Below are positions 646 through 11,025 of a DNA stretch of 32,570 bases, piece by piece. Positions within the stretch are counted from its first letter, which is position 1; every line of letters begins with the position of its first letter. A program made the translations under genes and the position numbers. Under the pieces are notes generated by a model. The model saw nothing but the letters and a program-made list of their open reading frames with translations. It had not been told where the DNA came from and made no database searches. This DNA comes from Oscillospiraceae bacterium (GTDB lineage: Bacteria; Bacillota; Clostridia; Oscillospirales; CAG-272). The stretch is taken from the NCBI GenBank assembly GCA_015063455.1, contig SVUC01000011.1, positions 1 to 32,570 of the forward strand, written 5' to 3'.

Positions 646-2175
646 TCATTCACCAACAGATGCTTCGATAGAAATTGAAAAGCTCCCCTCGATATCAGTA
701 ATACTCTTGCCATCTGTTACAAAATATGGGTTTGCCGGGTCAATGTTTACCCTTTCAAGTGACGGAAGTCCTGAGAATGCCTTTCCTGATATTTTCTCCA
801 CTTTCGGCCCAATGTTGATCTCGGTGATTTTGTCAGCCACAGAACTACTTGAAAATGCATTGTCAGCAATACTCTTTATTGCATCCGGAAGATAGAGCAC
901 GGTATCCTCACCATTATATGCACAAACCTCAAGTTCAACTGATGTATCATAATAAACGCGTCTAGAGCTCCAGTAATCGTAAGGATTTTCCTTGTTAAAC
1001 TGATACATCTCTTCAAGCGAATCAAACTCGAACAATACAAACTCATCAAACCACTCTTCCATAGTCATTTCGTGTCGATAAGTTATATAGTCCTCAACCG
1101 TATAGGTTATCTCCGGAATAAACATATACTCTCCTTGAACTATATCTACTCTTCCGTCCTCTCCGAAATAGAAGTCTGGTCCTGTTATTATAGATGAAAA
1201 CGGGTCAGCAGTTTGACGACTCTCCGATGCAAATTCACCATTCTCTTTGTGGTAACACAAGCTGCCGTTTTCATCGCAAGACAAGGTTACCGCGCCATTT
1301 TCTCTGACGTTTCCCCAAGGCAATGTGATTATACCGTCTTTTGTAAATATATACGCATCATCAGTGGTCGAACGGCGCGTAAATACATATCCGTCAGCGA
1401 AGTTAAACGAGTATACGCTAAAGTTTCCTGTCAATGAAAAGGGTTCATCGAACTCTAAAACCTGCTCCCCATATTTTATTGAATGAAGTCTCGCACTATA
1501 ATTGCCGGTATAATCTTCTGTAACAAACGATATTTCAAGCTCGGCTCCGTCGCATAGCACGGTAACCACTTCATCCGGGGATTCAGTGTGAATTTTGTTG
1601 ACCCGCATTGGCAACGGATAATTAGAATTATCTTTTCTATAGATAGCCGCATCCGCACCTTCCTTGAACCAGGCCCAGTATGAGCAGGTGTATATTCCTT
1701 CTCTGGTGGAGCTGAGGAACACATCTATAAAGGAATATTTCGGGTTGTCAGTCGCCACATTCACACAACCTATCTTATTTAGATTGTCAAAGGCCCTGGG
1801 AGAGATCTCCGTCACATTTGCACCAATGTTGATTTCGGTTATTTCGTCAGCAACCGGGCTGTCCCCGAAAGCGTTTTCTGCAATTTCCGTAACCGAATCG
1901 GGAAGATAAACAACAGTATTTGTACCGAGATAGCTTGTGAGAACTCCATCGGTAATTATGTAATCAGCCTCGTTGATTACTGTCGTCTCTTCCGCTTCTA
2001 TCTCCGGGGCATCAGTTTCCCTTGTTGCTGATTCACCCGATTCGGATATAGGTGTATTTGTTGGAACATCGGCATTAGGATTGGTCTCGTCAATTCTAAC
2101 ACCATGATCACATCCACACATAACAGTTAATACAACTACCGCTACAGCAGCAAGAATTAGTTTTTGTCTAAACAT
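646..2175 (-). CDS. Putative lipoprotein with two LRR_5 (BspA-like) repeat blocks flanking a ~280-aa unassigned domain
   Basis: 509-aa ORF; N-terminal hydrophobic segment ending LTVMCGC; repeated YLPDxxxxIAxNAF..ITEINIGxxVxxISxxAF blocks; SD AGGAG upstream. Confidence 0.75.
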   Translation of the reverse strand: MFRQKLILAAVAVVVLTVMCGCDHGVRIDETNPNADVPTNTPISESGESATRETDAPEIEAEETTVINEADYIITDGVLTSYLGTNTVVYLPDSVTEIAENAFGDSPVADEITEINIGANVTEISPRAFDNLNKIGCVNVATDNPKYSFIDVFLSSTREGIYTCSYWAWFKEGADAAIYRKDNSNYPLPMRVNKIHTESPDEVVTVLCDGAELEISFVTEDYTGNYSARLHSIKYGEQVLEFDEPFSLTGNFSVYSFNFADGYVFTRRSTTDDAYIFTKDGIITLPWGNVRENGAVTLSCDENGSLCYHKENGEFASESRQTADPFSSIITGPDFYFGEDGRVDIVQGEYMFIPEITYTVEDYITYRHEMTMEEWFDEFVLFEFDSLEEMYQFNKENPYDYWSSRRVYYDTSVELEVCAYNGEDTVLYLPDAIKSIADNAFSSSSVADKITEINIGPKVEKISGKAFSGLPSLERVNIDPANPYFVTDGKSITDIEGSFSISIEASVGE

Positions 2176-2435: not shown

Positions 2436-5400
2436 TTAGTTATTCTTTTGCAGACTGTCCAAGTATGCAACTACTTTAGTCCAACTATCATTAGTCAATG
2501 CGCCCGCATATTTTTGGGTGTTAAGAGCATTATTTGCAGCGTCTTCGGGAAACACAGTACGAATATCACTCTCGTAATTCGAATCGTTTCTTGGTGTCCA
2601 ATAGTTTTTCAATGTATACTCGCCGTTTTTATCTATTGTGAAGGTGATTGCTGTTGGAACAAAATCACCTTCGACTTCTTCAATCTGCCCTTCGTTAACA
2701 GCATACTTCGTATGATATACGATCAAATAAACAGTTACTTCATCAAAGTTCTCAGTATTAGCGAACGCTTTTGCTACTCCTTCAGTTTCAATGTCAAGCA
2801 AACAATACGATTCAACATGAATGAGTCCGTCCGGATATTCACTGCGGTATTTATCTTTTAACACACTTGATATAGCATCGTTTATTTCAGATGTATCTAA
2901 AGACCATCTCCACGCCGCATCGGGTTTCTTGCTTTGATTTACAACGTAGTTTTCATAATCGGCTTTTGAGACCTCTCTGTTCTCTATGTAATACAACGTT
3001 ACATTATTTTCGTAGTCTACGCGGTAATAAGCAATTTTAATTATTCTGTCATCATTTCTCGATAGGTCCAATTTTCCTATTCCGGAAATCGATCCACCTA
3101 AGTCCCAGCTGAAAGTTCCGTCTGCTTTTAAGTTATTAAACGTTCTGTATGGCTCAGGAAGTGCGTATACTTTGTTATCCTTATAGTAGAGTATCAGGAA
3201 ATTACCACACGAAATTTCCAAAACCATCTCAGATTGACCGTCTCCGTCAAGATCAATTATCGCATATTTTTCGAGAGTGTATCCGTTATAGTCAAGCCAT
3301 CTGTCAAGTCCAATGCCTTCGGGTTGGTCAAAAGTGTACATCGGGAGATGGTTTCGCAGAACTGACTGACATCTAAGCACGGATTCGTCGGTATCATAGT
3401 CAATTATGTATCCGTAAGATCTCAGCTCCGCAATACGTTTATCGTCCACTTCGCCACGATATTTGAATTCAAGGACAGTTTCGACGTAATCGAAGTTGTC
3501 GAACGAAACGTACCATGTTTTATTTCCTTTGGTCAGCTTTACGATGAATTCGCACTCACCACTTCCTCCGCCTCCTCCCGAATAAACAGGAGTTGCAGTG
3601 TCATAATCGACTGATTCGGGGAAGTGGATATTAAGAATACCAACACTTGAGCTGCCAGCAACGTGATAATATACATTGAAAGTGTGACGCTCTGCTTGGT
3701 CACTCGGTAATGAGAGAGTAGGATATGTGTAGAAGTAAAGATAAACGTTATTCATGAATATCTTGTCGTGGAAAAGAAATATCCGGTCTCCTGTGGGGAA
3801 TGACCCAAGCACCGATAAAGGATCAAAGTCATTCTCGGTAAGTATGTGTTTGATTGTGTACTTGCCCGAGTAATCCTGGAAGCCGAATGAACTTACAACC
3901 AATTCGCCTGCAATATATTGGTACTTCAATTCAAAATATCCGACTCCTTCATAAGGACCGTCCGAGAACACGTCTTTTTTGCATAGAATGTCCTTACAAG
4001 ATATCAGACAGCCATTTTCAACAGAGTAGTTTTCTGACCCATAGCAAAGAAAATCGTATGTTTCACTCGGGTTGGCTGGATCCTTGATCTTCGGAATGGT
4101 GTATTTGGTCAGATTTTGTTTGCCGAGTGTGATAATGTAGTCAGAATCTGTAGTTTCAAGATTAGTATATTCGTACACAAATGATGTGGGATTACTTACA
4201 ATGATAGAATCTCCTGTTCTGCCGTTTTTGACATCAACCCAATTATCCATCTCAAATGTATGGAGATTTGTTTCAGGATCATAATTCTCGCGGTATGTAA
4301 ATGTGTAGCTTTCCTCCACTCCGTCTGACGTGAAGTCTGCGTAATAAGTATCGGTGTATGAACAGGTCGTTTTGTTGTTAGAATAATATTTTACATCTGT
4401 TATTTCAAATTGTCCCGTAGTCTCTGAGTACCTGTGGTAAATATTTATTGTCCCGGGAATGCCTGCAGGAGAGAGGAAGAGATTTATTGGGCAATTTATA
4501 AAAACGTCTGAAACTGTGTAATTACAGAAAGGTTCGTAGCCGAGCTTATCAAAAAGGATTGTAGGATCTGTTCCGAGGCAGTCTTTTGCGATATAATATG
4601 TCCGATTTCCGTAAGTGATAGTGAACGCATATTCGTTTGCTCCGAAGACGACATTATCATTGAGAAACTCTATTGGATCGGGGAAAGAAATGGGTTCACC
4701 TGTTTTTCCGTTGACCGCATAAATATCTTCTTGCAAGATGCCCGTTCCGCTGCCTAAAACATTTGTTATTACTGTGTCAAGGACACCGTCTCCTGTGAAG
4801 TCGACAGAGTGTACTTTTGTGCGGTAACCATTTATCACCTCGGGAACATTTTCTTTATTGTAAACATTGTCGATTCCGCGGAACATAATGTGTTCACTTG
4901 TGGTATAGACAAGGGCTTTGCCGACAAGACCATTGAAATCCTCAGAATCAGACGATGTTACCGTTATACGAGCGTACTCGGTGTATCCGATATTGTACTT
5001 CATATTGGGGAATATATGTACCATAAGGGATATTTTGGCTGTCTTTCCGCTTCTTGCTTCTGTGAGTGTGGCGGTAATCAGACCATTCGAGTCTATCATA
5101 TACGGACCTTCGTATGCAAGTCCCCATTCGCTGTACATAAGACCTGATTTGTACTGCATTGTCTTGTTTTCCGTATCAAATGAGAAGCAGTCTACAGAAA
5201 CTCCGCTGTTGTAGGGTTCCTCTCCGAGATCGGTGTAGTAGTACCACGATTTTTCCGCGAGAATTGACATATCGATCGGTAATACCTTATGAGAATAGAG
5301 TCCGTCAAATATATTGGAGGTGTACGCATTTTTACCCCATTTATATACGGTGTCGCCGTATATAACAGCGTTTGCGGCAAACATTTCGCTGATTCCGTTC

Positions 5401-7517
5401 TTTACATAGTACAGAGCAATCGAATCGGTTTCTTCAAAATATTCTGCACAGATCTCGCTGATCTGTCCTGTTTTCATCGGTATAGTTACCTGATACATCT
5501 GACCGTCGATCAGCTTATAATAATGAGACTGCCGTACTTTGTCCACCATATGGACTCCGCTGGTCCATACGGCTTCAATCTCGCCGTCATGGTCTATGTC
5601 AGCGAAAGTAACGGCTGCGGCATTTGCTTTTGCTGAATCAAGGAATGTCTTGCCGCATTTTTCCTCAATTGTATCCCCTTCATCGAACCATTCGAGCGGG
5701 CAAAGCATATATTCGAGCCCCTCTTCTGTTGCATCTGACGGTATTCCTTCGGGAAGATCCGTGCGGTTTGCAGTGATCTTGATGTTTGCAATGATGCTGT
5801 TCATCACCTCTTCTTCGTTTGCAGGCTTTTCTCCCGAAGTGTCAGAAGGTGCGAGCGTTATCACTGAATAGAGATTGTGTCCGAGCTCGATCAGATACAT
5901 ATATTGACGTCTGCTTTTTTCCTTAAAAGCCTCTCGTTCAGCCTCAGCAATATTTTCGAGATAGTCATCGGGGACAACGTTGAAGTAGTTCAATGTCGGG
6001 TAATTCCAACCGTCATCTGCACCGTAAATTCCGTACTGATATATTTCATATGCGGGTGCATATCCCCAATGTGCGCGGTTGAAGAGAGCTTTCGGGTCGC
6101 AGCCGTCGTCACATAAAAGTGTCTGACAGTCTATTATGCTGTAATTCTCAGCATCCCCGGGGAATTGCAGCTCGATCATACTATCGCCGTATGAGAGTGT
6201 ATCTGCATCAATATAAACATCGTCACAATGATATATTTTGTGCGACATATATTGTGTGGTAACTTTATCGTTATTTGCAGGATCATCTGGGTCTGGATCA
6301 TTTGAATCATCCACTCCCGATTCATTATTTTCACCTGCGGGATCGTTATACACGATTTTTTCGCTTTCGTTTATGTCGATAAGAGAACATCCGACCGCAC
6401 AGAGCGATAGAAGTACTGCAATAATTGCAAGGATTAATTTGTGGTTGTTTTTCTTGGTAAGCATAGTGATCCTTTCTTTGATAGAACCACTGCCGAGTCC
6501 GATGGCATCCGTCTGCATGAACAGGCTGTTTTTTCTCGGAATTGTATCAATAATAATTCCAGCGTAATCGAGGCGCTGTCTTTCGTTCAGCTTAGCAGAT
6601 ACAGTATCGTCGCAAGCGAGTTCAGCATCCTGCTTCGACACATATGCTGCTATCCATACAAAAGGATTCCACCAATAAACTGCAATGGCGGCAAGGCGGA
6701 TAAGAGACCATATGTTGTCAAGATGCCTGAGATGAGTGTACTCGTGGATGATAATCATCGCGGGACTCTTAGCTTCGAGTGAACTAGGGGTTAGATAAAT
6801 TGCGGGAATAATGCCGCTGAGACAAGGCGAGTGTACGTTTTTTGAGATATAAACGTTAACGTTGTTTATTCTTTTGAAAAATACTCGATCTCGGCGGACG
6901 CTGAGCGTGAAGGCTATTCCCGACAAAATAAATGTCGCACCAATCACGCAGGAGACTATGACGCGGATCTTGTTCGCAGCGGAGATGAGTCCGTCTGTCA
7001 AATTGGGATTTTCTTTTCCGCTGTCATCAATCTTGTCGATTGGATCAATAATTTCCTGCGAGTCCGAGTTGTTTTGTGGATGGGAGATGATATCACCGAT
7101 GTTGACGTCAGGCTCATCGCTTACACCCGGGGTGACATTGTTCTCTGGAACGTCACTTAATTCGGGATTACTTGGGATGACAACTCCGGGAATTTCTGTG
7201 TCTCCCGTGAAAGATCCTGATGGACTTTGCGGTGTCGGAGTAATCGGAATCAGCACCTGACTTCCCGATACGTTGCCGGGAGATACAGGGATTTCGGGCT
7301 GATTTACTGTCGAATCATTGATGGATGACACTGGCGGATCAACAAAGATTTCTTTCTCAACATTTATTTCAATGGGAGAGAAGGGGATGAGCAGTTTTAT
7401 CACAACTGCGATCCATAGTGCGTAGATCAGCCTCGGTGACACGGAACGACGAAACAGAAGTCTGATCAGTAATATTATTACGATCAGTACTGAGAGAATA
7501 ATCGCATTTTTTAGCAT
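2436..7517 (-). CDS. M56/BlaR1-family membrane metallopeptidase with very large extracytoplasmic C-terminal region
   Basis: 1693 aa; N-terminal TM helices, HEYTHLRHLD (HExxH), W-NPFVW and D-ELACDD motifs typical of M56; directly follows blaI; C-terminal DIDHDGE, DFTGDGVLD, DFTSDGVEE, DLDGDGQSE motifs. Confidence 0.9.
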   Translation of the reverse strand: MLKNAIILSVLIVIILLIRLLFRRSVSPRLIYALWIAVVIKLLIPFSPIEINVEKEIFVDPPVSSINDSTVNQPEIPVSPGNVSGSQVLIPITPTPQSPSGSFTGDTEIPGVVIPSNPELSDVPENNVTPGVSDEPDVNIGDIISHPQNNSDSQEIIDPIDKIDDSGKENPNLTDGLISAANKIRVIVSCVIGATFILSGIAFTLSVRRDRVFFKRINNVNVYISKNVHSPCLSGIIPAIYLTPSSLEAKSPAMIIIHEYTHLRHLDNIWSLIRLAAIAVYWWNPFVWIAAYVSKQDAELACDDTVSAKLNERQRLDYAGIIIDTIPRKNSLFMQTDAIGLGSGSIKERITMLTKKNNHKLILAIIAVLLSLCAVGCSLIDINESEKIVYNDPAGENNESGVDDSNDPDPDDPANNDKVTTQYMSHKIYHCDDVYIDADTLSYGDSMIELQFPGDAENYSIIDCQTLLCDDGCDPKALFNRAHWGYAPAYEIYQYGIYGADDGWNYPTLNYFNVVPDDYLENIAEAEREAFKEKSRRQYMYLIELGHNLYSVITLAPSDTSGEKPANEEEVMNSIIANIKITANRTDLPEGIPSDATEEGLEYMLCPLEWFDEGDTIEEKCGKTFLDSAKANAAAVTFADIDHDGEIEAVWTSGVHMVDKVRQSHYYKLIDGQMYQVTIPMKTGQISEICAEYFEETDSIALYYVKNGISEMFAANAVIYGDTVYKWGKNAYTSNIFDGLYSHKVLPIDMSILAEKSWYYYTDLGEEPYNSGVSVDCFSFDTENKTMQYKSGLMYSEWGLAYEGPYMIDSNGLITATLTEARSGKTAKISLMVHIFPNMKYNIGYTEYARITVTSSDSEDFNGLVGKALVYTTSEHIMFRGIDNVYNKENVPEVINGYRTKVHSVDFTGDGVLDTVITNVLGSGTGILQEDIYAVNGKTGEPISFPDPIEFLNDNVVFGANEYAFTITYGNRTYYIAKDCLGTDPTILFDKLGYEPFCNYTVSDVFINCPINLFLSPAGIPGTINIYHRYSETTGQFEITDVKYYSNNKTTCSYTDTYYADFTSDGVEESYTFTYRENYDPETNLHTFEMDNWVDVKNGRTGDSIIVSNPTSFVYEYTNLETTDSDYIITLGKQNLTKYTIPKIKDPANPSETYDFLCYGSENYSVENGCLISCKDILCKKDVFSDGPYEGVGYFELKYQYIAGELVVSSFGFQDYSGKYTIKHILTENDFDPLSVLGSFPTGDRIFLFHDKIFMNNVYLYFYTYPTLSLPSDQAERHTFNVYYHVAGSSSVGILNIHFPESVDYDTATPVYSGGGGGSGECEFIVKLTKGNKTWYVSFDNFDYVETVLEFKYRGEVDDKRIAELRSYGYIIDYDTDESVLRCQSVLRNHLPMYTFDQPEGIGLDRWLDYNGYTLEKYAIIDLDGDGQSEMVLEISCGNFLILYYKDNKVYALPEPYRTFNNLKADGTFSWDLGGSISGIGKLDLSRNDDRIIKIAYYRVDYENNVTLYYIENREVSKADYENYVVNQSKKPDAAWRWSLDTSEINDAISSVLKDKYRSEYPDGLIHVESYCLLDIETEGVAKAFANTENFDEVTVYLIVYHTKYAVNEGQIEEVEGDFVPTAITFTIDKNGEYTLKNYWTPRNDSNYESDIRTVFPEDAANNALNTQKYAGALTNDSWTKVVAYLDSLQKNN

Positions 7518-7520
7518 CGT

Positions 7521-7907
7521 TTACTCCTTTCCTTGTTTTGCTTCCGCTTCGTCGAGTATCTTACGCAGCTCTGCGATGTCTTCTTCGGATAAAGCTTTGC
7601 GTCCTGCCATAGATGAGACCATAAGTCCGATACTTCCGTCGTAAACGCGTGAGAGAAAAGAATCAGTCTCTGCAGGAATTATTTCCTTTCTTTTGATCAT
7701 AGGATAATACTGCTGGACACGACCGCTGTCGTCAACCCTGACAGCACCTTTGCCGATCAGTCTTTTCAGCATAACAAAGATCGTGGTTTTTGACCAGCCC
7801 GTATCTTTTTCAAGAAGATTTACCATTTCCGAAATTGTCCTTGGAGATGACTTCCAAAGAAGGTTCATAAGCTTCCATTCTCCGTCGGATAGATTTATAT
7901 TTGCCAT
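7521..7907 (-). CDS. blaI: BlaI/MecI/CopY family transcriptional repressor
   Basis: MANINLSDGEWKLMNLLWKSSPRTISEMVNLLEKDTGWSKTTIFVMLKRLIGKGAV is a typical BlaI winged-helix; SD GGAG before the ATG at 7907; 3-bp gap to the M56 gene. Confidence 0.92.
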   Translation of the reverse strand: MANINLSDGEWKLMNLLWKSSPRTISEMVNLLEKDTGWSKTTIFVMLKRLIGKGAVRVDDSGRVQQYYPMIKRKEIIPAETDSFLSRVYDGSIGLMVSSMAGRKALSEEDIAELRKILDEAEAKQGKE

Positions 7908-8057
7908 ATCATTCTCCATTCCTCCGCCAAATCAGCGGCACAAATATTTAGTGAAATTCAAATTAAAAAATTACCTTATCAAATATTTAATTTAAATTTC
8001 GCAGCGTGAACGTTTTTTCATTTACGTTAAATAAACTTTTACGCTGATTCTTGGGGT

Positions 8058-8069
8058 TAACAGCTGTTA
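8058..8069. promoter_or_regulatory. BlaI-type operator candidate O1 (TAACAGCTGTTA)
   Basis: Perfect palindrome with ACA-NN-TGT core, just downstream of the predicted blaI -10. Confidence 0.65.
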
Positions 8070-8078
8070 TCTGATTAT

Positions 8079-8107
8079 ATGATAACACACAGGTTAACAG
8101 TTGTCAA
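8079..8107 (-). promoter_or_regulatory. blaI promoter: TTGACA (8102-8107) -17- TATCAT (8079-8084)
   Basis: Sigma-A-like elements with 17-bp spacing on minus strand. Confidence 0.55.
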
Positions 8108-8330: not shown

Positions 8331-8423
8331 TTGATTTGGAATAAAAACATTTTCGGTGATTATTTGATTATTAAAATACTAAATAATGCCGCAGATAAAT
8401 GCAGATTGTTGTGGGGGAATCCA

Positions 8424-8645
8424 ATGAAAACATTAAAGCAGGTAAAAGTTGGTGACACAGCCAAGGTGGTAAAACTTCACGGAGAAGGTGCTGTAAGACG
8501 GCGTATTATGGATATGGGTATCACAAAAGGTGTGGAAATCTATGTTCGTAAGGTTGCACCACTCGGTGATCCCATCGAAGTAATGGTAAGAGGATACGAA
8601 CTTTCTCTCAGAAAAGATGATGCTGATATGGTAGAAGTTGAGTAA
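8424..8645 (+). CDS. feoA: Ferrous iron transport protein A
   Basis: MKTLKQVKVGDTAKVVKLHGEGAVRRRIMDMGITKGVEIYVRKVAPLGDPIEVMVRGYELSLRKDDA: FeoA/SH3-like; followed by feoB. Confidence 0.95.
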   Translation: MKTLKQVKVGDTAKVVKLHGEGAVRRRIMDMGITKGVEIYVRKVAPLGDPIEVMVRGYELSLRKDDADMVEVE

Positions 8646-8695
8646 ATCTCACTTTTTTCGTAAAAACAGACTGTGTTTATTACAGATTATGTAAA

Positions 8696-8714
8696 AATGG
8701 GGTATTCCCCCATT
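8696..8714 (+). terminator. Hairpin AATGGGG-TATTC-CCCCATT between feoA and feoB
   Basis: 7-bp perfect stem followed by CTCTTT; weak terminator. Confidence 0.45.
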
Positions 8715-8728
8715 CTCTTTGACTTGTG

Positions 8729-8744
8729 GTTAGCATTCACTAAC
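8729..8744. promoter_or_regulatory. DtxR/IdeR/MntR-like operator candidate 3 (GTTAGCATTCACTAAC)
   Basis: Third TTAG-N6-CTAA dyad, upstream of feoB. Confidence 0.6.
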
Positions 8745-8865
8745 TCGATTGACAGAATGCTTGAATAAAAGTCTGCAAATATGAATATCACTGATTTTGG
8801 ATAAAATCGAATGATAATTCAGAAGTAAGAAACTTGCCGCGTTTATGCGGAATTTGGAGGTAAAT

Positions 8866-11025
8866 ATGTCAATACGCATTGCTTTGGCCGGAAATCCTAA
8901 CTGCGGAAAAACAACGCTGTTCAACGCTCTTACGGGTTCTAATCAATACGTAGGGAATTGGCCGGGTGTTACGGTAGAAAAGAAAGAAGGAAAGCTGAAG
9001 AAAAACAGTGATGTAATAATCACAGACCTTCCCGGTATTTATTCACTTTCTCCGTATACACTTGAAGAGGTTGTTGCGAGGAATTACCTTGAAGGTGAGC
9101 GTCCTGATGCAATTTTGAATATTGTTGACGGAACAAATCTTGAGCGAAACCTTTATCTCACGACACAGCTTATCGAGCTTGGAATACCGATAGTAATTGC
9201 GATAAATATGATGGACGTAGTCCGTAAGAACGGTGATACGATCAACATAGATGAGTTGTCTCGTATAATCGGTTACAAGGTTGTTGAAATATCGGCGTTG
9301 AAGGGAGAAGGAATTCTGGAGGCTGCTGATGCAGCAATTGAAGCTGCAAAGACAGGTCGTGTTATACAGAATCATCCGTTTTCCGGAACGGTTGAACACG
9401 CTATTGCACATATTGAAGAGGCACTTCTTCACGATCTTCCGGAGGAAAGACAGAGATGGTATGCTGTCAAGCTGTTTGAGAGAGATGCTAAGGTTATTGA
9501 GCAGCTTCGAATAGATAAAAAAATGATAGATCATATTGAGCACGACATTTCTGCAGTAGAGCGTGAAATGGATGATGATGCCGAAGCGGTAATTACAAAC
9601 GAAAGATATAATTACATAACATCGGTGATAAGCAAATGTTATAAGAGAAAATCATCATCAAGAATGACCACATCTGACCGTATTGACAGGATAGTCACAA
9701 ACAGAGTTTTGGCAATTCCGATTTTTGTTGTCGTAATGTGGCTTGTATATACGATCTCTATTGGAACAGTGGGCGACTGGACGGTAGATTTTATGAATAA
9801 TACATTGTTCGGTGAAACTATCATTCCTGCTGTTGCTGACGGTCTTACTTCTATCGGGTGTGCCGAGTGGCTTGTAAGCCTTGTGGCGGATGGTATTGTC
9901 GGCGGTGTTGGAGCAGTTCTCGGTTTTGTTCCTCAGATGCTTATTCTCTTCATTCTTCTCGCGCTTCTCGAGGATTGCGGATATATGTCACGAATCGCAT
10001 TTATTATGGACCGTCTCTTCAGAAAGTTTGGTCTGTCAGGAAAATCCTTCATCCCGATGCTCGTTGCAACAGGATGCGGCGTTCCCGGTGTAATGGCATC
10101 GCGAACTATAGATCAGGATCGTGACAGAAAAATGACGATTATGACAACCTGTTTTATCCCGTGCGGTGCAAAGATGCCGATCGTTGGTCTTATTGCCGGT
10201 GCACTTTTTGGCGGATCCGGACTTGTTGCAACAGCGGCATATTTCATTGGTGTCGCGGCAGTCATCATATCAGGCTTGATTCTTAAAAAATTCAAGGCAT
10301 TCTCGGGTGACCCTGCTCCGTTCGTTATGGAGCTTCCCGCATACCATGCTCCCGTTCCTTCAAACGTGCTTCGCGCGACATGGGAACGAGGCTGGTCATT
10401 CATCAAGCGCGCAGGTACTGTAATTCTCGCGGCTTCCGTTATCATTTGGGTTCTCAACAGCCTTTCATTCGAGGGCGGATTCCACTACATAACAGAAGAA
10501 AATCCCGGAACATCTATACTTGAGCTTATCGGAACACCTATTTCTTACCTCTTCATTCCTCTTGGATTCGGCGGATGGCAGGCAGCAGTTGCAACAATTC
10601 TCGGCCTCGTTGCTAAGGAAGAAGTTGTCGGCGTGTTCGGTACACTTTCTCAGATGCTCGGTGAAGGCGTTGACCTTCTCGGCGAGCTTGACGAAGGCTC
10701 TTACGAGAACGCAGTTCTTATCGGTAAGGAATTCTTCGGCGGATCTAAGCTTTCTGCCTTCTCATTCATGATATTCAATCTTCTCTGTGCACCTTGCTTT
10801 GCAGCAATGGGAGCAATCAGACGTGAAATGAACAACGGCAAGTGGACATTTGCTGCGCTTGGTTGGATGACAGCATTTGCTTACGCAACATCACTTATCG
10901 TTTATAATATCGGTATGCTCTTCACAGGTGCTTTCAGCGTATGGACAGTGCTTGCATTCATCGTTCTCGCGGTGATGGTTTACCTTCTTGTCAGAAAAAA
11001 CAAATACGATCAGAATTCACTTTAA
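8866..11025 (+). CDS. feoB: Ferrous iron transporter B
   Basis: GNPNCGKTTLFNALTG, GNWPGVTVEKKEG, DLPGIYSLSPYT, NMMD GTPase motifs and Gate/Nucleoside-recognition TM region; SD GGAGG upstream of ATG 8866. Confidence 0.97.
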   Translation: MSIRIALAGNPNCGKTTLFNALTGSNQYVGNWPGVTVEKKEGKLKKNSDVIITDLPGIYSLSPYTLEEVVARNYLEGERPDAILNIVDGTNLERNLYLTTQLIELGIPIVIAINMMDVVRKNGDTINIDELSRIIGYKVVEISALKGEGILEAADAAIEAAKTGRVIQNHPFSGTVEHAIAHIEEALLHDLPEERQRWYAVKLFERDAKVIEQLRIDKKMIDHIEHDISAVEREMDDDAEAVITNERYNYITSVISKCYKRKSSSRMTTSDRIDRIVTNRVLAIPIFVVVMWLVYTISIGTVGDWTVDFMNNTLFGETIIPAVADGLTSIGCAEWLVSLVADGIVGGVGAVLGFVPQMLILFILLALLEDCGYMSRIAFIMDRLFRKFGLSGKSFIPMLVATGCGVPGVMASRTIDQDRDRKMTIMTTCFIPCGAKMPIVGLIAGALFGGSGLVATAAYFIGVAAVIISGLILKKFKAFSGDPAPFVMELPAYHAPVPSNVLRATWERGWSFIKRAGTVILAASVIIWVLNSLSFEGGFHYITEENPGTSILELIGTPISYLFIPLGFGGWQAAVATILGLVAKEEVVGVFGTLSQMLGEGVDLLGELDEGSYENAVLIGKEFFGGSKLSAFSFMIFNLLCAPCFAAMGAIRREMNNGKWTFAALGWMTAFAYATSLIVYNIGMLFTGAFSVWTVLAFIVLAVMVYLLVRKNKYDQNSL

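Follow-up and report, generated by a model that had tools for sequence, protein, structure and literature searches.

The receptors BlaR1 and MecR1 govern penicillin and methicillin resistance, and the way in which their outside sensor is coupled to their inside protease is still debated. The stretch of DNA analyzed here (32,570 nucleotides from an Oscillospiraceae bacterium, hereafter the window) pairs a repressor of the BlaI family with an M56 metalloprotease receptor of 1693 residues, and thus raises the question of what such a receptor senses and how its outer part is joined to the protease. The blaI-family gene (132 aa; 7521–7919, minus strand) is an open reading frame with a Penicillinase_R match (E = 3.2e-29), and the M56 gene (2436–7517, minus strand) is one with a Pfam Peptidase_M56 match (E = 1.6e-37); as an earlier note on this DNA had stated, both are separated by 3 bp (7518–7520), M56 being downstream. 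The end which that note had placed at 7907 corresponds to an internal methionine, the blaI frame starting at 7919.

The M56 part of the protein scores 129.7 bits against a Pfam cut-off of 31 (PF05569) and contains the complete catalytic set of the family, including HEXXH...E, with HEYTHLRHLD at residues 258–267. The zinc metalloprotease core (residues 218–353; 6459–6866, minus strand) was delimited by the Pfam match and its invariant catalytic residues, since H258, E259, H262, E299, D303 and R349 are identical in 138/138 aligned relatives. By alignment, Arg349 (6471–6473, minus strand; also 138/138) is the equivalent of BlaR1 Arg294, a domain-swapped active-site residue in a protein whose loop occupies the protease active site; mutation of Arg294 together with Arg293 severely reduces BlaR1 activity (PMC9834060). 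Hydropathy places transmembrane (TM) helices at residues ~4–22, 31–49, 186–204 and 362–380; therefore, the Pro/Ser/Asp-rich stretch already noticed between the early helices (residues ~50–185; 6963–7370, minus strand) would be the extracellular TM2–TM3 loop, that is, EL1 in the topology of BlaR1. Beyond TM4 the protein continues for ~1316 residues (378–1693). The source genome, a MAG in 154 contigs (81% complete), is fragmented, which might suggest a misassembly or a chance fusion of unrelated ORFs. Nonetheless, the gene is a single uninterrupted 5.1-kb frame, and a homologue search, which the earlier note had proposed, found the architecture of an M56 core plus a large C-terminal region with shuffled modules recurring in many other genomes, relatives included, so that an assembly artefact is scarcely credible.

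The repressor matches Penicillinase_R over the whole profile, as a winged-helix repressor with a C-terminal dimerization and cleavage region; its residues 7–126 align to MecI (1sd6) and BlaI (1sd4), and a Ser|Met pair can be read from the alignment at the BlaI cleavage site Asn101|Phe102. Upstream of blaI lies a promoter-like TTGACA-17-TATCAT, with the -10-like TATCAT at 8079–8084, together with two candidate BlaI operators. The first, TTGACAACTGTTAA (8094–8107, minus strand), overlaps the -35 box TTGACA (8102–8107); the second, ATAACAGCTGTTAA (8057–8070, minus strand), is a dyad situated 37 bp from the first. Dyads of the ACAnnTGT type were found upstream of blaI in 21/43 homologous genes versus 2.8 in shuffled sequence; the enriched form is TTGACAnnTGTyAA, whereas the classical TACAnnTGTA operator shows no enrichment. 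The blaI operon is likely autoregulated through these paired candidate operators. Genome-wide, the strict operator pattern has just three occurrences, and no wider regulon was found with it; therefore, no regulon beyond autoregulation is proposed. Divergent from blaI are feoA/feoB-like genes (8331–11025, plus strand), and a link to them was considered and dropped, as the neighbourhood is not conserved and other members have different neighbours.

Regarding the sensor, Pfam detects no transpeptidase or beta-lactamase domain in the M56 protein, and the NCBIfam model blaR1_generic (NF000326) reaches 82.9 bits against a cut-off of 400, with a match confined to the M56 part. The fold comparison of the C-terminal region suggested by the earlier note was carried out by Foldseek on two ectodomain models and by profile searches, and returned no transpeptidase or other penicillin-binding fold, residues ~590–1240 being poorly modelled (the second model is poor outside module A, with a mean pLDDT of 54.7). 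The C-terminal penicillin-binding (class D-like) sensor belonging to NF000326 is thus missing from Pfam, NCBIfam, profile and fold searches alike, as had been anticipated. The BlaI partner and an M56 core akin to that of BlaR1 could still evoke a beta-lactam sensor, i.e., a true BlaR1 whose penicillin-binding domain has diverged and lies concealed within the ectodomain; against the concordance of these searches, with the caveat of the poorly modelled ~590–1240 region, this is very improbable.

Such a combination is not exceptional. The BlaR1 model matches in 161/300 genomes of the phylum and exceeds its cut-off in 1/300: across this phylum, M56 proteins generally lack a penicillin-binding domain, and a BlaI next to an M56 protein devoid of a transpeptidase sensor is, by itself, ordinary. 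The genome of the window encodes about seven M56 genes, most of them with an upstream BlaI, and M56 matches occur in 25/25 genomes of the genus, in frames of up to about 3857 aa, large and shuffled ectodomains being common among them. The reading of the locus as a BlaI–M56 unit with a non-penicillin-binding ectodomain is therefore retained from the earlier note, but not the special status given to it there. A scan of the genome contigs with the single protein recovered no loci, and a clade alignment then recovered 79; most of the relatives that carry a name are MAGs of Clostridia/Oscillospiraceae, and the nearest of them come from herbivore guts.

The window ectodomain is a string of modules (all on the minus strand) common to other M56 ectodomains, where they appear in differing orders. 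Module A (residues 426–582; 5772–6242) is found at other positions in five further M56 ectodomains. Module B is present twice, as copy 1 (904–1014; 4476–4808; DxTxDG-type loop), with 17 matches in M56 ectodomains, and as copy 2 (1059–1178; 3984–4343), an internal repeat of the former. Module C (1249–1359; 3441–3773) also occurs outside M56 proteins, in the stand-alone lipoproteins L053:4511-6967 and L069:5119-7254; module D (1414–1536; 2910–3278; DxDxDG loop) gives 22 matches in 19 proteins, and module E (1589–1683; 2469–2753) is shared with other Clostridia M56 proteins of ~600–820 aa. Predicted model confidence is high for module A (pLDDT ~80–92) and for module D (mostly about 87–98). Modules B and D carry DxDxDG-type loops, and a profile of the C-terminal ectodomain matches the calcium-loop-like motif of the PL11 lyases YesX/YesW (E = 4.4e-5); compared with FG-GAP/VCBS-like DxDxDG repeats and with these rhamnogalacturonan lyases, it is the loop motif alone that matches, with no match at the fold level. 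The mostly propeller-like fold matches of the ectodomain models were at chance level (best-ranked TM-scores about 0.1–0.2) and were treated as no match. The clostridial M56 proteins of ~600–900 aa, usually annotated as “M56 family metallopeptidase”, possess the same core, and module E in common with the window protein; many of them carry a TM4 lipobox (GCTFTGA type), although their ectodomains are much smaller. A gene for a putative lipoprotein (646–2175, minus strand) follows the M56 gene at a distance of 260 bp; its product carries BspA-type leucine-rich repeats (LRR_5) and is possibly a partner or target of the receptor. One aligned M56 relative carries LRR_5 inside its own ectodomain.

The surprise of the protein lies in the junction between protease and ectodomain. 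BlaR1 has an N-out/C-out topology (PMC9834060), and TM4 would therefore run from inside to outside, like a signal peptide. In the window protein this helix, recognized by hydropathy and by comparison with relatives, ends in a lipobox (residues 362–377, ...LLSLCAVGC; 6387–6434, minus strand), with Cys377 encoded at 6387–6389. The junction reads KKNNHK-LILAIIAVLLSLCAVGC|SLI, the lipobox being CAVGC|S, and thus comprises the positive n-region, hydrophobic h-region and lipobox cysteine of a lipoprotein signal. Lipoprotein signals are N-terminal; this one is internal, at residue 377, whereas in the split relatives described below it lies near the N-terminus. The window lipobox also has a cysteine at -4, which the strict PROSITE lipoprotein pattern would reject. 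The same genome encodes the enzymes that would read it, namely Lgt (E = 4e-73) and LspA (E = 1.7e-43).

Among 99 full-length relatives, a lipobox is found at TM4 in 64, versus none at TM2, which crosses the membrane in the same direction and serves as control, one at TM1 and six at TM3; this control alone is relied on, since in the phylum-wide sample TM2 was often misplaced and the corresponding control was discarded. Cysteine occupies the exact TM4 column in 55% of 138 sequences, versus a few percent in the majority of the remaining TM4 columns, and in 43% of 63 (<60% identity) or 34% of 47 (<50% identity) representatives after thinning. Ala374, Gly376, Cys377 and Ser378 are invariant across the five closest relatives. 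The trait is present in 23/31 members of the window's clade (SH-aLRT 96) and missing in 8/31, and is therefore not indispensable; it underwent at least 22 changes over the whole sequence set, and belongs to a minority of proteins across the phylum at large (4/40 in a separate sample). When phylogenetically independent pairs were compared, the cysteine and a small residue at -1 showed no significant association (median p = 0.45), the power of this test being too low for a decision. Two further giants can be mentioned: a 2338-aa M56 paralogue of the same genome (L010, 1161–8177), with a TM4 ending in LFAC|S, and one of about 3856 aa from a genus mate (L040, 4184–15754), ending in IVAC|T. In the phylum sample (L207–L246), where the lipobox is missing, TM4 of many M56 proteins terminates in AxA-like sites (e.g., AVSALAADN, TTAWASNN), which resemble type I signal-peptidase sites, in agreement with the established cleavage of BlaR1 by SpsB.

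These data bear on the simplest alternative, namely a conventional M56 receptor, made as one chain and with an unusually large ectodomain, whose TM4 cysteine is tolerated, or serves packing, S-acylation or a disulfide, without being recognized by Lgt or LspA. The absence of the cysteine from some members of the clade and, across the wider phylum, from the majority of M56 proteins would fit this explanation, as would the fact that a literature search, covering sources outside subscription journals, found no paper joining BlaR1 and a lipobox and none describing a receptor of this kind with an internal lipobox. We regard it as unlikely, while deserving serious weight, given the confinement of the lipobox to TM4 as opposed to TM2, and given that homologous lipobox helices serve as N-terminal signals of separate genes.

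The latter situation was found in six genomes of the window's order (L203 in G345, L165 in G089, L202, L204, L205 and L206), where the receptor is split. The M56 genes of these loci end before the last helix (at Pfam positions 268–272 of 296 in the two tested), and next to them lie one to three genes, each of which encodes a BlaR1-type loop, the Arg294 equivalent, a helix, a lipobox (e.g., GSLVAC, GSLVSC) and an ectodomain. In L203, BlaI is followed by a 300-aa M56 protein without the last ~25 Pfam positions, and then by three tandem genes of this kind, of which the first overlaps the stop codon of the M56 gene, and which match a profile of unsplit M56 proteins with E = 4e-7 to 6e-5. L165 contains two such genes beside its truncated M56, each of those inspected with a purine-rich ribosome-binding-like site, plus a protein of the DUF1287 (CHAP-like) type, with a TM helix at its N-terminus (3204–3905), encoded between the split M56 and its lipoproteins. 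The remaining four loci carry at least one such gene each; E-values range from 4e-7 to 3e-4 for most of the split genes, those of L204 and L206 being marginal (~0.01). The LSTA|MSGSAKETEGR of the split genes aligns to the BlaR1 stretch LSHS|FNGKKSLLKRR294 with no gap from the scissile bond to the arginine. The Arg294 equivalent, conserved in 138/138 unsplit proteins, is lacking in the split M56 polypeptides, and the lipoprotein is therefore expected to form a functional part of the protease. The window protein itself does not clearly keep the LSxx|F-type autocleavage motif, QTDA|IGL being aligned at LSHS|FNG, and its paralogue L010 has LTTH|FNP at this position. In the window's own genome, L013 (725–2416) comprises BlaI, a 304-aa M56 protein that terminates directly behind TM4, and a small lipoprotein encoded separately downstream. 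L166 was not counted as a split receptor: its M56 stops before TM4 and is followed by a small ORF that opens with a helix resembling TM4, plus an AxA-like site, and a simple frameshift is possible. No description of split M56 lipoprotein receptors was found in the literature covered, again outside subscription journals.

Another case of the split type, L077:5526-6752 (E = 2e-6), lies near the window's clade between BlaI and another M56 gene, and resembles an M56 copy minus TM1–3 and protease. Such easy recombination of parts, together with a module C common to stand-alone lipoproteins, could indicate that the lipobox is a relic of repeated fusions of M56 genes to lipoprotein genes, the old signal peptide acting now only as TM4. 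This is rather improbable, as A.GCS is kept among relatives just 34–40% identical, where a relic should be lost, and the segment preceding TM4 in the split genes is M56-like.

The window thus probably encodes a BlaI–M56 derepression unit with a lipoprotein-type, non-beta-lactam sensor instead of a penicillin-binding domain, a reading based on the gene pair earlier described and on what that description passed over (the TM4 lipobox, the lipoprotein-shared modules, the paired operators and the split homologues). BlaI would repress its own operon through the paired TTGACAnnTGTyAA operators, and the cytosolic zinc protease of the M56 protein, N-out/C-out like BlaR1, would cleave it when the ectodomain signals, presumably in response to an extracellular ligand, perhaps the large surface or envelope ligand proposed in the earlier note. 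TM4 would act both as the last helix and as a lipoprotein signal peptide: Lgt would add diacylglycerol to Cys377, and LspA may cut before it, turning the ~1316-residue ectodomain into a surface lipoprotein held non-covalently to the protease via TM4 and the long EL1 loop. In the split relatives, the lipoproteins would supply the autocleavage-type loop and the active-site arginine in trans to the truncated protease. BlaR1 is cut in its loop and then by type I signal peptidase just past the last helix, whereby the sensor is shed (PMC9834060); lipobox processing may yield comparable pieces with the sensor retained on the membrane. Our best reading is that a type II signal-peptidase site takes the place of the known type I site here.

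Compared with the Staphylococcus aureus systems BlaR1/MecR1 and BlaI/MecI, the window shares a repressor gene adjoining an M56 zinc protease, four TM helices, HEXXH...E, dyad operators and, with BlaR1, the active-site arginine before TM4 and a signal-peptidase site just after it. It differs in its modular ectodomain without a penicillin-binding sensor and in the predicted type II lipobox, and its relatives differ in encoding the sensor arm as a separate gene, sometimes in tandem copies. The BlaR1 homologue of Mycobacterium tuberculosis also lacks a sensor domain (PMC9834060), being likewise an M56 protease with a BlaI-type repressor and no built-in beta-lactam sensor, but has no equivalent of the giant ectodomain that the window protein carries and that partner lipoproteins supply in the split relatives. 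More tentatively, and with somewhat less conviction than for the window alone, these loci could represent a class of BlaR1-type receptors of Clostridia in which the protease works with exchangeable lipoprotein sensors, whose cytosolic tail furnishes the inhibitory loop and the active-site arginine and whose TM4 is the lipoprotein signal, several different sensors from tandem genes complementing one M56 and one BlaI; the window protein would be a fused, LspA-processed form with a giant modular sensor.

Natural receptors whose sensor arm and active-site arginine reside in a separate lipoprotein would offer a direct test bed for the coupling in BlaR1. They would also suggest that most M56–BlaI pairs of gut Clostridia serve general surface sensing and not the regulation of antibiotic resistance, and would caution against annotating them as beta-lactam resistance genes.
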